Source: Paenarthrobacter sp. Z7-10
GTDB taxonomy: Bacteria > Actinomycetota > Actinomycetes > Actinomycetales > Micrococcaceae
Assembly: GCF_026932795.1 (NCBI RefSeq)
Contig: NZ_JADPVH010000008.1
Location: 1 to 64,000 of the forward strand
Direction of reading: 5' to 3'
Length of the DNA: 64,000 nucleotides
Shown here: positions 759 through 45,182 of the stretch, in pieces
Numbering within the stretch: the first letter of the stretch is position 1
How the letters are laid out: each line of letters begins with the position of its first letter
Position numbers and translations under genes: made by a program
The notes under the pieces: generated by a model
What the model was told of the DNA's origin: nothing
Database searches by the model: none
The model's input: only the letters and a program-made list of their open reading frames with translations

Positions 759-795
759 CAGGGGCCGCTGGAACGATTTAACTCACCGATGAAAC

Positions 796-821
796 GCCCC
801 GAAACCGTTGCGGTTCGGGGC
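796..821 (+). terminator. stem-loop between gcvH and garA
   Basis: GCCCCGAAACCG (796-807) pairs with CGGTTCGGGGC (811-821) around a 3-nt loop, with one bulged base. It lies 27 bases before the garA start. It could attenuate read-through from gcvH into the regulator genes. No U-tract follows. Confidence 0.45.
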
Positions 822-848
822 TGCTGGGGAATACAAGGAGGAGCACCG

Positions 849-1334
849 ATGGTTGCCGATGGGAACAACGCCGGGTTCAGTGGGCAGGCGGAGTCTCAGG
901 ATCAGCCAGGAGCCTCTGAGACGACGTCGATTAATCTTTCCCCAGTGCGTCGCGAACCGGCGGTTGAGTACAATCTCAGCGCCGAGGAGCGGTCCGCGGT
1001 TGAGGCGCTGCCGGCTGGATCCGCGCTGCTCATCGCCCACAGCGGTCCCAACCGCGGCGCCCGGTTCCTGCTCGACTCCGATTCCACCTCGGCCGGCCGG
1101 CATCCGGATGCCGACGTTTTCCTGGACGACGTCACGGTGTCCCGCCGGCATGTCACCTTCCGCCGGGTGCCCGGGGGCTTCGAGGTCGTTGATTCCAAGA
1201 GCCTGAACGGCACTTACGTCAACGGGGACCGAGTCGACTCGGTTCGACTGCGCAGCGGGAACGAAGTCCAGATTGGCAAGTTCCGGCTGACCTACTACTA
1301 CAGCCCGGCCGCCCCGGTCAGGCCCCGCTCGTAG
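849..1334 (+). CDS. garA: FHA-domain regulator GarA/OdhI
   Basis: GarA (OdhI in corynebacteria) is a small FHA protein. When unphosphorylated it binds and inhibits 2-oxoglutarate dehydrogenase and also acts on glutamate metabolism; phosphorylation by Ser/Thr kinases turns it off. The 161-residue product keeps the N-terminal phospho-acceptor motif ETTS (residues 24-27) and a complete FHA domain at about 55-150, with GRHPDADVFLDD, SRRH (98-101) and SLNGTYVN. The ATG at 849 has an AAGGAGGAG Shine-Dalgarno sequence. An in-frame ATG at 789 would run through the stem-loop and is unlikely. The order gcvH-garA-merR-bfn matches mycobacteria. Confidence 0.95.
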   Translation: MVADGNNAGFSGQAESQDQPGASETTSINLSPVRREPAVEYNLSAEERSAVEALPAGSALLIAHSGPNRGARFLLDSDSTSAGRHPDADVFLDDVTVSRRHVTFRRVPGGFEVVDSKSLNGTYVNGDRVDSVRLRSGNEVQIGKFRLTYYYSPAAPVRPRS

Positions 1335-1345
1335 GGGCCGCCGTT

Positions 1346-2116
1346 GTGAGCATGAATAATGCATCCCAGCGGAAGTTGAGCGCACTGACGGGAGTGCGGG
1401 TGCACAGCGTCCGTCCCGGCACGCCGGTGATCTTCAATATCGGTGAGGTGCTGGCCCAGCTCAGCGAGGACTTCAGCTCCGTTACTGCCTCCAAAATCCG
1501 CTTCTACGAGGAAAAGGGACTGATCACCCCGCAGCGGACCCCGGCCGGTTATCGGCAGTTCCGCGAGGCCGACGTCGAGCGTTTGCGCTTTATCCTGGCG
1601 CTGCAGCGCGACCACTACCTGCCCCTGAAGGTGATCCGGGACTACCTGGATGCCATCGACCGCGGTGAGGGTCCGGAAAATTTGCCCCCTGGCGTTTCAA
1701 TAGCCCCGCGGATGGTTTCCGACGAGTTGGCCGGCGAGTTGAAGAGCCGAACGCGTTCGTTGTCCCCGGACCAGCTCCGTGCCGAGTCCGGCGCCAGTGC
1801 CGAACTGCTCGACGCGCTCCTCAGCTACGGCCTGATCTCCAGCCAGGACGGACGTTTCGACGACGCCGCCCTGCACATTGCCAAAGCCTGCACGGCCTTG
1901 TCCGCTCATGGTTTGGAGCCGCGGCACCTTCGTCCGTTCCAGGCAGCGGCGGAACGCGAATTTGGACTGGTGGAGCGCGTGGTCGCCCCGCTGGTATCCC
2001 GGCGGGATGCCGCCTCCGCGGCCAGGGCTGCGGAAACGGCCCGGGAAATCAGTGACCTCTGCCTCGGTCTGCACAGTGCACTGGTGCAGGGTCAGATTGC
2101 GCGGATGGAACGCTGA
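1346..2116 (+). CDS. ftsR: MerR-family regulator, FtsR/Rv1828 type
   Basis: The product is a 256-residue MerR-type DNA-binding protein. The winged helix-turn-helix spans about residues 30-104 (TASKIRFYEEKGLITPQRT, then the GYRQF wing and an RLRFILALQRD helix), followed by a long C-terminal helical region. Its place directly after garA is that of Rv1828 and of corynebacterial FtsR (next to odhI), which is reported to activate ftsZ. That makes FtsR the best call, although function is inferred from synteny and domain. GTG 1346 is preferred over ATG 1352 because AGGGG lies 8 nt upstream. A GGCCCC/GGGGCC stem overlaps the garA stop and this ribosome-binding site. Confidence 0.82.
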   Translation: MSMNNASQRKLSALTGVRVHSVRPGTPVIFNIGEVLAQLSEDFSSVTASKIRFYEEKGLITPQRTPAGYRQFREADVERLRFILALQRDHYLPLKVIRDYLDAIDRGEGPENLPPGVSIAPRMVSDELAGELKSRTRSLSPDQLRAESGASAELLDALLSYGLISSQDGRFDDAALHIAKACTALSAHGLEPRHLRPFQAAAEREFGLVERVVAPLVSRRDAASAARAAETAREISDLCLGLHSALVQGQIARMER

Positions 2117-2156
2117 TGCCCAGAACCATCCGGACCGGCGGCGGGACGGGTCAGCC

Positions 2157-2660
2157 GTGATCGAGGTCCAGATTGTTGGCGTGCGGGTGGAGATGCCCTC
2201 GAATCAGCCGCTGGTCCTGCTCAAGGAGCTCCTGGGTGAGCGCCATCTGCCCATCTGGATCGGCACGCCGGAAGCCACTGCGATAGCCCTGGCCCAGCAG
2301 GGAGTGGTCCCACCCCGTCCGCTGACCCACGATCTGCTGTGCAATATCGTGACAGCGCTCGGCCGCACCGTCGTCGCGGCGAACATTACAGCGGTTGAGG
2401 ATGGTGTCTTCTACGCTCAGTTGGTGTTCGACGACGGCACCCAAGTCAGTTCGAGGGCATCCGATGCGCTGGCCGTGGCCCTGCGGGTGGACTGCACGAT
2501 CTGGTGTGCCGAAGCCGTGATGGACGAGGCAGGGGTGCGGATTACGGACCACGATGACGTCGAACCGGAGTCGATCAGCTCTCCGGAGGCGGACGAGCGC
2601 GAATTGAACCGCTTCCGGAAATTTCTTAATGACGTTGAGCCCGAGGATTTCGAGAAGTAG
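2157..2660 (+). CDS. bifunctional nuclease-fold protein (DUF151)
   Basis: This 167-residue protein is a DUF151/BFN-family member. Characterised relatives are reported to have DNase and RNase activity, and the actinobacterial copy sits between two MerR genes (Rv1829 position). It shows the family signature LPIWIGTPEATAIALAQQG and then PRPLTHDL near residue 60. The core continues through FDDGTQVSSRASDALAVALR, and the tail is acidic. The GTG at 2157 was chosen because the conserved domain begins at once (IEVQIVGVRVEM). The frame is open upstream but overlaps ftsR. No strong Shine-Dalgarno is seen. The in vivo role is unknown. Confidence 0.85.
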   Translation: MIEVQIVGVRVEMPSNQPLVLLKELLGERHLPIWIGTPEATAIALAQQGVVPPRPLTHDLLCNIVTALGRTVVAANITAVEDGVFYAQLVFDDGTQVSSRASDALAVALRVDCTIWCAEAVMDEAGVRITDHDDVEPESISSPEADERELNRFRKFLNDVEPEDFEK

Positions 2661-2696
2661 CTCGATCCGACACGGGCAGATATTTGCCCCAGATCT

Positions 2697-2725
2697 TTGA
2701 CCAATGGACGGTGCCGCTCTAACGT
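2697..2725 (+). promoter_or_regulatory. candidate promoter for the second MerR gene
   Basis: TTGACC (2697-2702) is separated by 17 nt from TAACGT (2720-2725). The start codon is 102 nt downstream. The leader contains the inverted repeat CCATGC (2741-2746) and GCATGG (2758-2763), a possible operator. Confidence 0.45.
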
Positions 2726-2826
2726 CAATGTATAGAGCTTCCATGCATGACACGATGGCATGGCACCGGCGGCTGCGCAGCAGCGGCCATGCGGCTTCAC
2801 CGGAAGCCACGACAAGGAGGGTTCAC

Positions 2827-3420
2827 GTGAGTCCGAAAGGCGACGCTGGCGGGCTTAAGCCCGCCGCGGTCCCGAGTAAGGTCATAGCGGCCGGCGCCCA
2901 GGGATTGCTCTTTACCGAGGATTTGCCGGTACTGGACGAGGACGCCGGTTACCGTGGCCCGACGGCCTGCAAAGCTGCGGGCATCACCTATCGTCAGCTG
3001 GACTATTGGGCCAGGACCGGACTGGTTGAGCCTGCGGTCCGCGGCGCGGCTGGCTCCGGCTCACAGCGGCTCTATGGCTTCCGGGACATTCTGGTGCTGA
3101 AGGTCGTCAAGCGGCTGCTTGATACCGGGGTTTCACTCCAACAGATCCGCGCCGCAGTGGAACATCTGCGCGAGCGCGGGGTCGAGGACCTGGCGCAGAT
3201 TACGCTGATGAGCGACGGCGCCTCCGTGTATGAGTGCACCTCCGCGGACGAGGTCATAGATCTGGTTCAGGGCGGCCAGGGGGTTTTCGGCATAGCCGTG
3301 GGCCGGGTATGGCGCGAGGTGGAGGGCAGTCTGGCGGCCCTTCCCAGCGAGCATGTTGAGGAACAGGTCTTCCCCGACGACGAACTCAGTAAGCGCCGGA
3401 CCGCCCGCAGGATTTCCTGA
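2827..3420 (+). CDS. MerR-family transcriptional regulator (Rv1830-like)
   Basis: The product is a 197-residue MerR-type regulator. The DNA-binding domain spans about residues 45-120: GPTACKAAGITYRQLDYWARTG, a GSGSQRLYGFRD wing, and DILVLKVVKRLLDTGVSLQQIR. The C-terminal half has no recognisable effector domain. GTG 2827 is chosen because AAGGAGG lies 7 nt upstream; the in-frame ATG at 2704 overlaps the promoter. The position matches Rv1830. The regulated genes are not known from this sequence. Confidence 0.85.
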   Translation: MSPKGDAGGLKPAAVPSKVIAAGAQGLLFTEDLPVLDEDAGYRGPTACKAAGITYRQLDYWARTGLVEPAVRGAAGSGSQRLYGFRDILVLKVVKRLLDTGVSLQQIRAAVEHLRERGVEDLAQITLMSDGASVYECTSADEVIDLVQGGQGVFGIAVGRVWREVEGSLAALPSEHVEEQVFPDDELSKRRTARRIS

Positions 3421-43703: not shown

Positions 43704-43831
43704 CGGGCCGCCCGTTCAGTCAATTCCAGGCACAAGGTCGCGGCGAATATTTCCACCCGATTAAGACGACACGCGGGCGGCGGTAATTGCATGCGGGCAG
43801 GAACCCCTTTAGCGTTCCAAGCAGGAGTTAC

Positions 43832-43882
43832 TTGACATAACTATAACCTTCGACTTGAGGGTTAAGCTCTAAAAGCTTCAAG
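43832..43882 (+). promoter_or_regulatory. ftsZ upstream regulatory region with nested dyads
   Basis: The 273-nt gap between ftsQ and ftsZ contains an AT-rich island. It holds TTGACA (43832-43837), the imperfect dyad TAACCTT/AGGGTTA (43844-43864, 7-nt spacer) and the stem AAGCT/AGCTT (43864-43878), flanked by CTTGA/TCAAG arms (43854-43882). TAAGCT at 43863-43868 fits a -10. Its distance to TTGACA is 25 nt, too long for a standard promoter. A dyad inside an over-long spacer is the architecture MerR-type activators use, and an FtsR-like MerR gene is at 1346. Binding is not demonstrated. Confidence 0.45.
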
Positions 43883-43976
43883 CGGCAGTGGAGAGTTACG
43901 GGGAAAGTTCACCGGAACGCGGCACGCGGCGGAGCACTGAAGATTCTCACCAGTACACGAACAAGGGACACGTAAC

Positions 43977-45182
43977 GTGGCAGCACCCCAGAATTACCTG
44001 GCCGTCATCAAGGTCGTCGGCATCGGCGGCGGTGGCGTCAACGCAATCAACCGGATGATCGACGTGGGACTGCGCGGCGTTGAGTTCATTGCGGTCAATA
44101 CCGATGCCCAGGCATTGTTGATGAGCGATGCGGACGTCAAACTCGACATCGGCCGTGAGTTGACGCGTGGGCTCGGTGCCGGTGCCAATCCCGATGTTGG
44201 ACGGCAGGCGGCGGAGGACCATTCGGACGAACTCGAAGAGGTGCTGCGCGGGGCCGACATGGTCTTCGTTACGGCTGGCGAGGGTGGCGGCACCGGAACC
44301 GGTGGAGCACCCGTGGTGGCCCGTATTGCCCGATCACTGGGCGCGCTGACCATTGGCGTGGTCACCCGGCCTTTCACCTTTGAGGGACGCCGCCGGGCCA
44401 CCTCGGCCGAAAACGGCATCGATGCCCTGCGCGGCGAGGTGGACACGCTCATCGTGATCCCCAACGACCGGTTGCTTTCCATCAGTGACCGCAACGTCTC
44501 GGTCCTGGATGCCTTCCGTTCGGCGGACCAGGTGCTGCTCTCCGGTGTGCAGGGAATCACGGACCTGATCACTACCCCGGGCCTGATCAACCTGGACTTT
44601 GCCGATGTGAAGTCGGTTATGCAGGGCGCTGGCTCGGCATTGATGGGTATTGGTTCCGCACGTGGCGAGGACCGGGCCGTCAAGGCTGCGGAACTGGCGA
44701 TCGCCTCACCACTGCTGGAAGCCTCGATCGACGGCGCACACGGTGTGCTGCTCTCGATCCAGGGCGGCTCCGACCTCGGCCTGTTTGAAATCAACGAAGC
44801 GGCCCGGCTGGTGCAGGAAGTGGCGCACCCGGAGGCCAACATCATCTTCGGCGCCGTGATCGACGACGCCCTGGGCGACGAGGCACGCGTCACGGTGATT
44901 GCAGCCGGCTTTGACAACGTCGACGTCACCTCGGCCCCGGCGATGCCAACCGAGGCTTCCCGCCGGACACTGCCGGCCGCAGCCCCAGCGGCGCCGCAGT
45001 CGGCACCGCACTTGGCACCGGCCACCGTGCCGGCCGCAGGCCTGAACCACTGGGGTCAGCAGTCCAACAACAACCACATTCCGGCCGACGCCGGCTTCGA
45101 TGTGGATCTGCCCGCCGTGGTGGAGCCGGACCTGTCCGGGCATCGTTCCGATGAGCTGGACGTGCCCGACTTCCTGAAGTAA
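43977..45182 (+). CDS. ftsZ: cell division protein FtsZ
   Basis: FtsZ is the tubulin-like GTPase that forms the Z ring and organises septation. The 401-residue protein has the N-terminal [12 protein letters not shown], the tubulin signature [10 protein letters not shown] (from residue 103), the synergy loop [15 protein letters not shown], a disordered Ala/Pro linker and the conserved C-terminal peptide DVPDFLK that partners such as SepF and FtsW bind. It starts with GTG and is preceded by AAGGGA and a 273-nt regulatory gap, suggesting control separate from the mur genes. Confidence 0.98.

Follow-up and report, generated by a model that had tools for sequence, protein, structure and literature searches.

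Genes and Features of the ftsQ-ftsZ Region

The window is a stretch of 64,000 nucleotides from Paenarthrobacter sp. Z7-10, which contains ftsZ, separated from the ftsQ stop codon by a short gap, and a gene of the FtsR/Rv1828 type near its beginning. The coordinates of these genes, and of the control features proposed between ftsQ and ftsZ, are collected in Table 1.

Table 1. Genes and candidate control features of the window.
Feature	Position	Strand	Basis or remark
FHA gene, directly ahead of FtsR	789-1334		odhI/garA by position
FtsR/Rv1828 homologue	1346..2116	+	MerR_1; Rv1828 C-domain; structure match
ORF	1878-2660		nuclease gene of the published cluster, by position
Second MerR-type gene	2704-3420		McdR by position
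ftsQ-ftsZ gap	ftsQ stop 43703, ftsZ GTG 43977		273 bp
CGACACGC box, WhiA GACAC/WhiB2 cGACACGc type	43767..43774	+	word counts
P2, promoter-like pair TTGCAT-N17-TAGCGT	43787..43815	+	sequence, alignments of relatives
38-bp conserved composite element (-35-like hexamer, FtsR-type operator, -10-like hexamer)	43832..43869	+	conservation, sharp borders
TTGACA, candidate -35 of proximal promoter P1	43832..43837	+	constant offset from operator
25-bp register matching the published FtsR site	43839..43863	+	identity to C. glutamicum and M. tuberculosis sites
Outer-left operator hexamer AACTAT (consensus AACYCT)	43839..43844	+	profile and sequence reading
Inner-left operator hexamer AACCTT (consensus AACCCT)	43845..43850	+	profile and sequence reading
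Inner-right operator hexamer AGGGTT	43858..43863	+	dyad centre 43854
TAAGCT, candidate -10 of P1, 25-bp spacer	43863..43868	+	TANNNT kept in the home family
ftsZ, GTG start	43977..45182	+	Tubulin and FtsZ_C domains

Read directly from the window letters, the 38-bp element is TTGACATAACTATAACCTTCGACTTGAGGGTTAAGCTC, and it is numbered here with TTGACA at positions 0-5, TAAGCT at 31-36 and the dyad centre at 22. The original prediction had pointed to three features of this island, and all are in place: the hexamer TTGACA; an imperfect 7-7-7 dyad, formed by TAACCTT (43844-43850) and AGGGTTA (43858-43864) around CGACTTG (43851-43857) and pairing at six of seven positions; and a distance of 25 nt from TTGACA to TAAGCT, which is constant among the genomes with TTGACA. 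The consensus over relatives is TTGACAT-AACYCT-AACCCT-N7-AGGGTT-AGGGTT, having two hexamers on each side of a 7-bp centre. The dyad lies between the candidate -35 and the candidate -10, and its outer-right arm (43864-43869) overlaps the latter.

Regarding the gene at 1346, its assignment as the homologue of corynebacterial FtsR is supported by its domains and by structure. The C-terminal part resembles Rv1828 (phmmer E 1.2e-18), and the comparison with 5ydc, in a search whose coverage was for the most part residues 26-119 plus the C-domain of Rv1828, gives a Z of 13.8 with 35% identity over 117 residues. The predicted structure comprises a wHTH (32-105), a low-confidence linker (117-135, under pLDDT 50) and a helical C-terminal domain, with a mean pLDDT of 77.7 and a pTM of 0.45, the latter making the domain arrangement unreliable in the model. 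The monomer model has a short helix at 94-105; in classical MerR proteins, a long coiled-coil dimerisation helix comes after the wHTH.

The FHA, FtsR, ORF and second MerR-type genes (789-3420) are ordered as in the cluster of PMC6683498. According to the same work, FtsR of C. glutamicum is a dimer that binds this type of site and activates ftsZ, as the original prediction had stated for corynebacteria, and all ftsZ promoters analysed in it contain a similar motif. Consequently, the FtsR-ftsZ link, which was offered as inference from the letters, has already been published for related species. A MerR review gives the target of Rv1828 as unknown (PMC9909328).

Conservation of the Element across Actinomycetes

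The dyad alone means nothing, because a 7-7-7 dyad with at least six of seven pairs appeared in 549 of 2000 dinucleotide shuffles of the 273-bp gap. TTGACA with such a dyad starting at most 12 nt away was seen in 3/2000 shuffles, and TTGACA-N24..26-TANNNT in 2/2000, all of these patterns having been picked after inspection of the data. The strong evidence for the element is its conservation, rather than these shuffle statistics of one copy.

The same dyad was sought upstream of ftsZ in relatives, and it was found. Using a cross-validated profile, the element outscored every one of 3160 shuffled sequences in 127 of 158 Actinomycetes genomes, belonging to 41 of 48 families, and in 27 of the 37 genomes of the home family. 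The profiles were trained on other families only, with seed consensus strings typed by hand. The 158 upstream regions are those of the window, of 57 relatives (one more, G041, was dropped because its ftsZ start was not recognised) and of 100 of 197 class-level genomes, picked by choice and spread over families with a listed ftsZ position; the mycobacterial family f22 lies outside the 158 because of that choice. A chance arrangement in an AT-rich gap could appeal to the frequency of the dyad in shuffles and to the similarity with the C. glutamicum site, since other places in the window match that site at 15/25 or better; however, conservation in 41 of 48 families already refutes this reading, whose probability is negligible.

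The borders of the element are sharp, as the family-weighted information averages 1.32 bits over the 38 columns of the element (0-37), compared to 0.107 in the flanks. The family-weighted base conservation of T18, A26 and A32 is 100% after rounding, and that of T12 is 97%. When 59 genomes (its own and 58 relatives) were searched at the DNA level, ftsZ was matched in all 59, and in 15 of them the gap stretch was matched as a separate short piece at 86-93% identity, because the block is nearly fixed and its surroundings are variable in the alignments. In addition, a related pattern (at most 3 mismatches) has exactly one match in 122 of 148 genomes of the genus of G060, whose matches correspond to those of named mycobacteria, the reversed pattern having no match in these 148, and within the genome studied here no further copy was found at up to 3 mismatches with the two patterns searched. 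The control element is real and very conserved.

FtsR as the Probable Reader

FtsR was counted as present when matched at E <= 1e-10 in 172 genomes, i.e., the 158 and 14 more. The element occurs in 132 of 155 FtsR-bearing genomes versus 4 of 17 without detected FtsR (Fisher p 2.6e-7, shared ancestry not corrected). Family f32 is divided in the same manner, with the element in 8/8 genomes with FtsR and 0/11 without it, a split that probably reflects few loss events. Those lacking FtsR and keeping the element (G045, G064, G069 and G097) are draft assemblies in 150-970 contigs, so FtsR may be missed there; the sites of G069 and G097 are weak and devoid of TTGACA. From these sequence comparisons, the reader of the element is very probably FtsR.

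Another regulator, such as the second MerR-type protein encoded in the same cluster at the McdR position (2704-3420), is very unlikely to read the element instead, as the mycobacterial McdR (Rv1830) reads AATnACAnnnnTGTnATT (PMC9040748), a motif which by inspection is absent from the 38 bp, and as the f32 genomes without FtsR lack the element, in a comparison that followed FtsR only.

Among the 23 FtsR-bearing genomes without the element, ten belong to the home family of 37 (G005, G006, G009, G015-G018, G020, G025 and G036, none above the shuffle maximum). Some of these ten show other dyads, e.g., at L022 and L036, perhaps due to a changed FtsR specificity. Five of the 11 FtsR-less f32 genomes keep TTGACATAA with no recognisable operator (L251, L264, L259, L257 and L256, of G137, G190, G225, G146 and G199, respectively), and no TANNNT follows it in these five at any spacer from 13 to 29.

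The original reading of the ftsZ island is partly supported, by the FtsR homologue, the FtsR-type dyad, its class-wide conservation and the joint absence in f32; its second stem is not supported. The arms AAGCT and AGCTT are present (43864-43868 and 43874-43878); as a functional dyad they were rejected, being found in only 4 of the 127 element matches, all in the home family. Likewise, CTTGA (43854-43858) and TCAAG (43878-43882) do not continue this stem as outer arms, for CTTGA is separated from AAGCT by five unpaired bases on the left side and TCAAG shares one base with AGCTT on the right. Meanwhile, AAGCTTCAAGC or a near-identical sequence lies a few nt past the -10 at 43873-43883 and in the close relatives L002, L007, L010 and L024, where it is perhaps a conserved transcript start region. 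Because it recurs after the -10, the stem looks like an overlap of the -10 with this region, and thus incidental.

Symmetry and Half-Sites of the Operator

Over 108 distinct sites, bases pair at 68.3% about centre 22 (43854), compared to 59.3% about centre 25 and 47.1% about centre 19, in a test that, like the operator-only profile used below, reuses the same matches without cross-validation. In families f28 and f33, the C-G at 17/27 about centre 22 becomes G-C; likewise, the C-G at 15/29 becomes A-T in nine families, e.g., f30 and f21, with one or two members concerned in each. Both pairs are often broken, the states of 17/27 being G-C in 5 distinct sites, G-G in 5 and C-C in 5, and those of 15/29 being A-T in 11, A-G in 8 and C-T in 13. 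By corrected mutual information, 17/27 and 19/25 (sum 44) are among the top pairs, most of which are non-dyad.

In f28 and f33, the changed base is taken up by the inner-left and inner-right hexamers, and by the outer-left one in 3 of 5 distinct sites; the outer-right hexamer is without it. This linked 17/27 change fits the demand of a protein that reads the dyad. A residue of FtsR tracking the operator class (CCGTC in f28 and f33 versus CCCTC) was also sought among 51 proteins, with no simple code emerging: the wing is changed in the FtsR of f33 (ANY for SGY) and unchanged in that of f28.

The four hexamers are not retained alike everywhere. The Streptomyces locus L172 and G192 have an AACCCT-N13-AGGGTT pair corresponding to the inner-left and outer-right hexamers, which in L172 is the N13 pair of Corynebacterium in the other register; in Streptomyces, the -10/outer-right side is kept and the outer-left hexamer is lost, whereas Corynebacterium has lost the outer-right hexamer together with TTGACA. 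It can be conceived that the operator is an array of 2+2 hexamers with a 6-bp period, i.e., two interleaved AACCCT-N13-AGGGTT sites, in which one FtsR dimer could occupy two registers. With the outer-left and inner-right hexamers (centre 43851, the Corynebacterium pair), the -10 would be left free and the promoter activated; with the inner-left and outer-right ones (centre 43857, the Streptomyces N13 pair), the -10 would be covered and the promoter repressed, the switch being a shift of 6 bp. In this model, the P1 of Actinomycetes is taken as a promoter of the MerR type whose rigid spacer of 25 bp would be beyond repair by the ordinary undertwisting over 2 bp. This extended model is doubtful as a whole, and its assignment of the two registers to activation and repression is speculation.

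A Candidate Upstream Promoter and the GACAC Box

An additional promoter had been suspected, and a candidate is visible in the letters upstream of the element as the pair TTGCAT-N17-TAGCGT. It is kept in the alignments of relatives and recognisable as TACTGT in family f32, a conservation that makes two or more ftsZ starts probable. Of the 127 matches, 104 have a TANN[GC]T whose end is 13-20 nt ahead of TTGACA, a count made without shuffle control.

The word CGACACGC occurs in 77 of the 158 upstream regions versus 1/158 for the reversed word. With four exceptions among the distances listed, it stands 61-79 nt ahead of TTGACA; in the Corynebacterium loci L093, L145, L154 and L189, it directly follows the FtsR site instead. 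GACAC is the motif of WhiA, a direct activator of ftsZ in S. venezuelae (PMC3781837), and the mycobacterial WhiB2 reads cGACACGc (PMC9040748). Judged from these motifs, a layout of two promoters and two regulators may be conserved in the ftsZ gap.

Geometry of the Proposed Proximal Promoter

When the operator alone was used as query, with the maximum of the reversed sequences as threshold, 133 of the 158 genomes matched. TTGACA (at least 5/6) is at exactly position 0 in 99 of these, at another nearby offset in one and not near in 33, some of which are probably chance palindromes. In the named genomes, the operator-only pattern gave at least 118 stretches, and TGACATAAC is at the same offset in at least 106 among the matches listed; the 12 without it, again among the matches listed, are four from Corynebacterium, one from Streptomyces and seven non-actinobacterial.

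Two hexamers compete for the role of -10. In the 99 genomes with TTGACA in place, A and T are at the key positions of the 25-bp candidate in 93 and of the 19-bp candidate in 96, TANNNT being found in 34 and 0, respectively; NANNNT is found in 7 at 20 bp and in 22 at 26 bp. The home family has TANNNT at 25 bp in 23/27 and at 19 bp in 0/27, the weaker NANNNT at 19 bp in 26/27, and an exact AGGGTT as the outer-right hexamer in only 3/27. In addition, T36 is kept there in 25/27, compared to 18/27 for its neighbour 35 and 16/27 for 37. TANNNT at 25 bp reaches only 39/127 overall and T31 46/127; outside the home family, TANNNT is seen in 16/100 and A32 with T36 in 93/100, most hexamers there having another base in place of the first T, as in GAGGGT or GAGAGT. 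Both A32 and T36 are present in 131/131 composite loci with a located ftsZ start, mostly mycobacterial, from a set of 136 loci (126 distinct stretches) in which five have no located start.

The TANNNT of the home family, its T36, the changes of f28 and f33, and the Streptomyces and Corynebacterium patterns favour a -10 at 43863-43868, which is not proven because A32 and T36 mirror T12 and A8 of the dyad. It could be argued that this is instead a classical MerR promoter, whose true -10 would be GAGGGT (43857-43862), 19 bp after TTGACA, with FtsR acting by the standard distortion of a 19-bp spacer. The A at the second and T at the sixth position of this hexamer in 96/99 TTGACA-bearing genomes would agree, as would the known MerR spacing of 19-20 bp (PMC9909328); however, TANNNT is never found at this distance (0/99), and the conserved bases are explained by the dyad because the hexamer is inside the inner-right half-site, where bound FtsR would cover it. 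Moreover, the M. tuberculosis site is placed exactly between the -35 and -10 of P1, whose start was mapped (PMC6683498), fitting 25 rather than 19 bp, and we consider the 19-bp reading improbable.

RNA polymerase has its spacer optimum at 17 +/- 1, compared to 19-20 in MerR promoters (PMC9909328). A strong -35 and a -10 at 25 bp, 8 bp more than that optimum, should therefore be poorly used by RNA polymerase alone. The reading we prefer, with a probability of roughly two in three, is that the island is an FtsR-controlled proximal promoter P1 of ftsZ, both hexamers of which would be used at 25 bp, on top of the upstream P2. On the basis of the sequence, we infer that an FtsR dimer would occupy the array of inverted hexamers around 43854 and that RNA polymerase would use TTGACA (43832) and TAAGCT (43863), with FtsR filling the 25-bp spacer, so that P1 would depend on FtsR and be weak where the spacer is neither reshaped nor bridged by it. 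The output of ftsZ would follow FtsR activity, added to that of P2 acting as a promoter. Several points count against this reading: the low overall share of TANNNT at 25 bp, a spacer beyond the MerR range, the operator matches with no TTGACA close by, the genomes in which FtsR and the element do not go together, the broken 17/27 and 15/29 pairs, and the position of the C. glutamicum site outside a spacer.

The element could also serve without any P1, with FtsR sitting at about +10 to +47 of the P2 transcript as a downstream operator (roadblock or modulator) and TTGACA being part of a protein site rather than a -35. P2-like hexamers and the GACAC box do recur upstream at a near-constant distance, and few sites beyond the home family have T31. 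The survival of TTGACATAA in the five FtsR-less f32 genomes, with the P2-like TACTGT and no TANNNT after it, speaks in the same direction and against the P1 reading, as TTGACA may have another role. However, TTGACA is an exact sigma-70 -35 that does not follow the operator changes of f28 and f33, and a site without P1 is opposed both by the finding that FtsR activates ftsZ in C. glutamicum and by the mapping of P1 in M. tuberculosis (PMC6683498), which leaves this reading a minor possibility.

The FtsR-ftsZ link is well supported and largely known; PMC6683498 was the only paper that the literature search on FtsR and ftsZ returned, subscription papers being outside its reach. The class of FtsR site is also known, and the new part, as far as this search shows, is the rigid 25-bp promoter-operator composite, since a rigid long-spacer geometry of an FtsR promoter was not found in print within the same reach.

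Comparison with Known Systems

Besides the Rv1828 C-domain, the closest structures include the GlnR/TnrA-type regulators 4r24, 4r22 and 4r4e, with Z of 11.6 to 11.8 to the wHTH. The entries for CadR, NmlR and Mta differ from these matches by no more than 1 Z and so count as ties, and GlnR/TnrA-type regulators have other targets and C-terminal parts than FtsR.

The FtsR site of C. glutamicum shares with the element its target gene, a homologous regulator and the half-site sequence (PMC6683498). The window at 43839-43863 is identical to it at 15 of 25 positions, a similarity that alone is within chance. In the published 25-bp register, AACCCTAAAGTAAAGGTTGAGGGTA, the half-sites are the outer-left and inner-right hexamers; its centre is at 19, 3 bp to the left of the centre found here, and it is located at -61 to -85 of the start (centre -73), not in a spacer (PMC6683498). 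The four Corynebacterium loci named above keep the outer-left and inner-right hexamers, without TTGACA before them and without the A and T of a -10 after them. This suggests that Corynebacterium is the exception, most sampled families keeping a fixed operator and most of those the fixed 25-bp composite. In C. glutamicum, for which the activation of ftsZ by FtsR has been published, the site is far upstream of the start (PMC6683498).

In M. tuberculosis, the Rv1828 site of ftsZ P1 occupies precisely the interval from the -35 to the -10 of a promoter that has been mapped, and the window is identical at 17 of 25 positions to the site as printed in PMC6683498. This spacing rests on the description in that paper, as M. 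tuberculosis was neither named among the stretches listed above nor recognised in the genus of G060. Related mycobacteria have TTGACA-N25-[GT]AG[GA]GT in nearly all loci examined, and the mycobacterial loci have GAGGTT at positions 25-30.

In the spacer-distortion promoters of MerR, CueR and BmrR, a wHTH of the same fold also meets a dyad between -35 and -10 (PMC9909328). They differ from the arrangement described here in their spacer, which is 19-20 bp rather than 25 (PMC9909328), and in their regulators, as FtsR is predicted to have a short helix (94-105), a linker (117-135) and a separate C-terminal domain. If FtsR acts through the 25-bp spacer, either distortion of the MerR type exceeds the 19-20 bp rule or another kind of bridging exists. 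The comparison points to the bases for mutation, with the FtsR-less lineages as natural controls.
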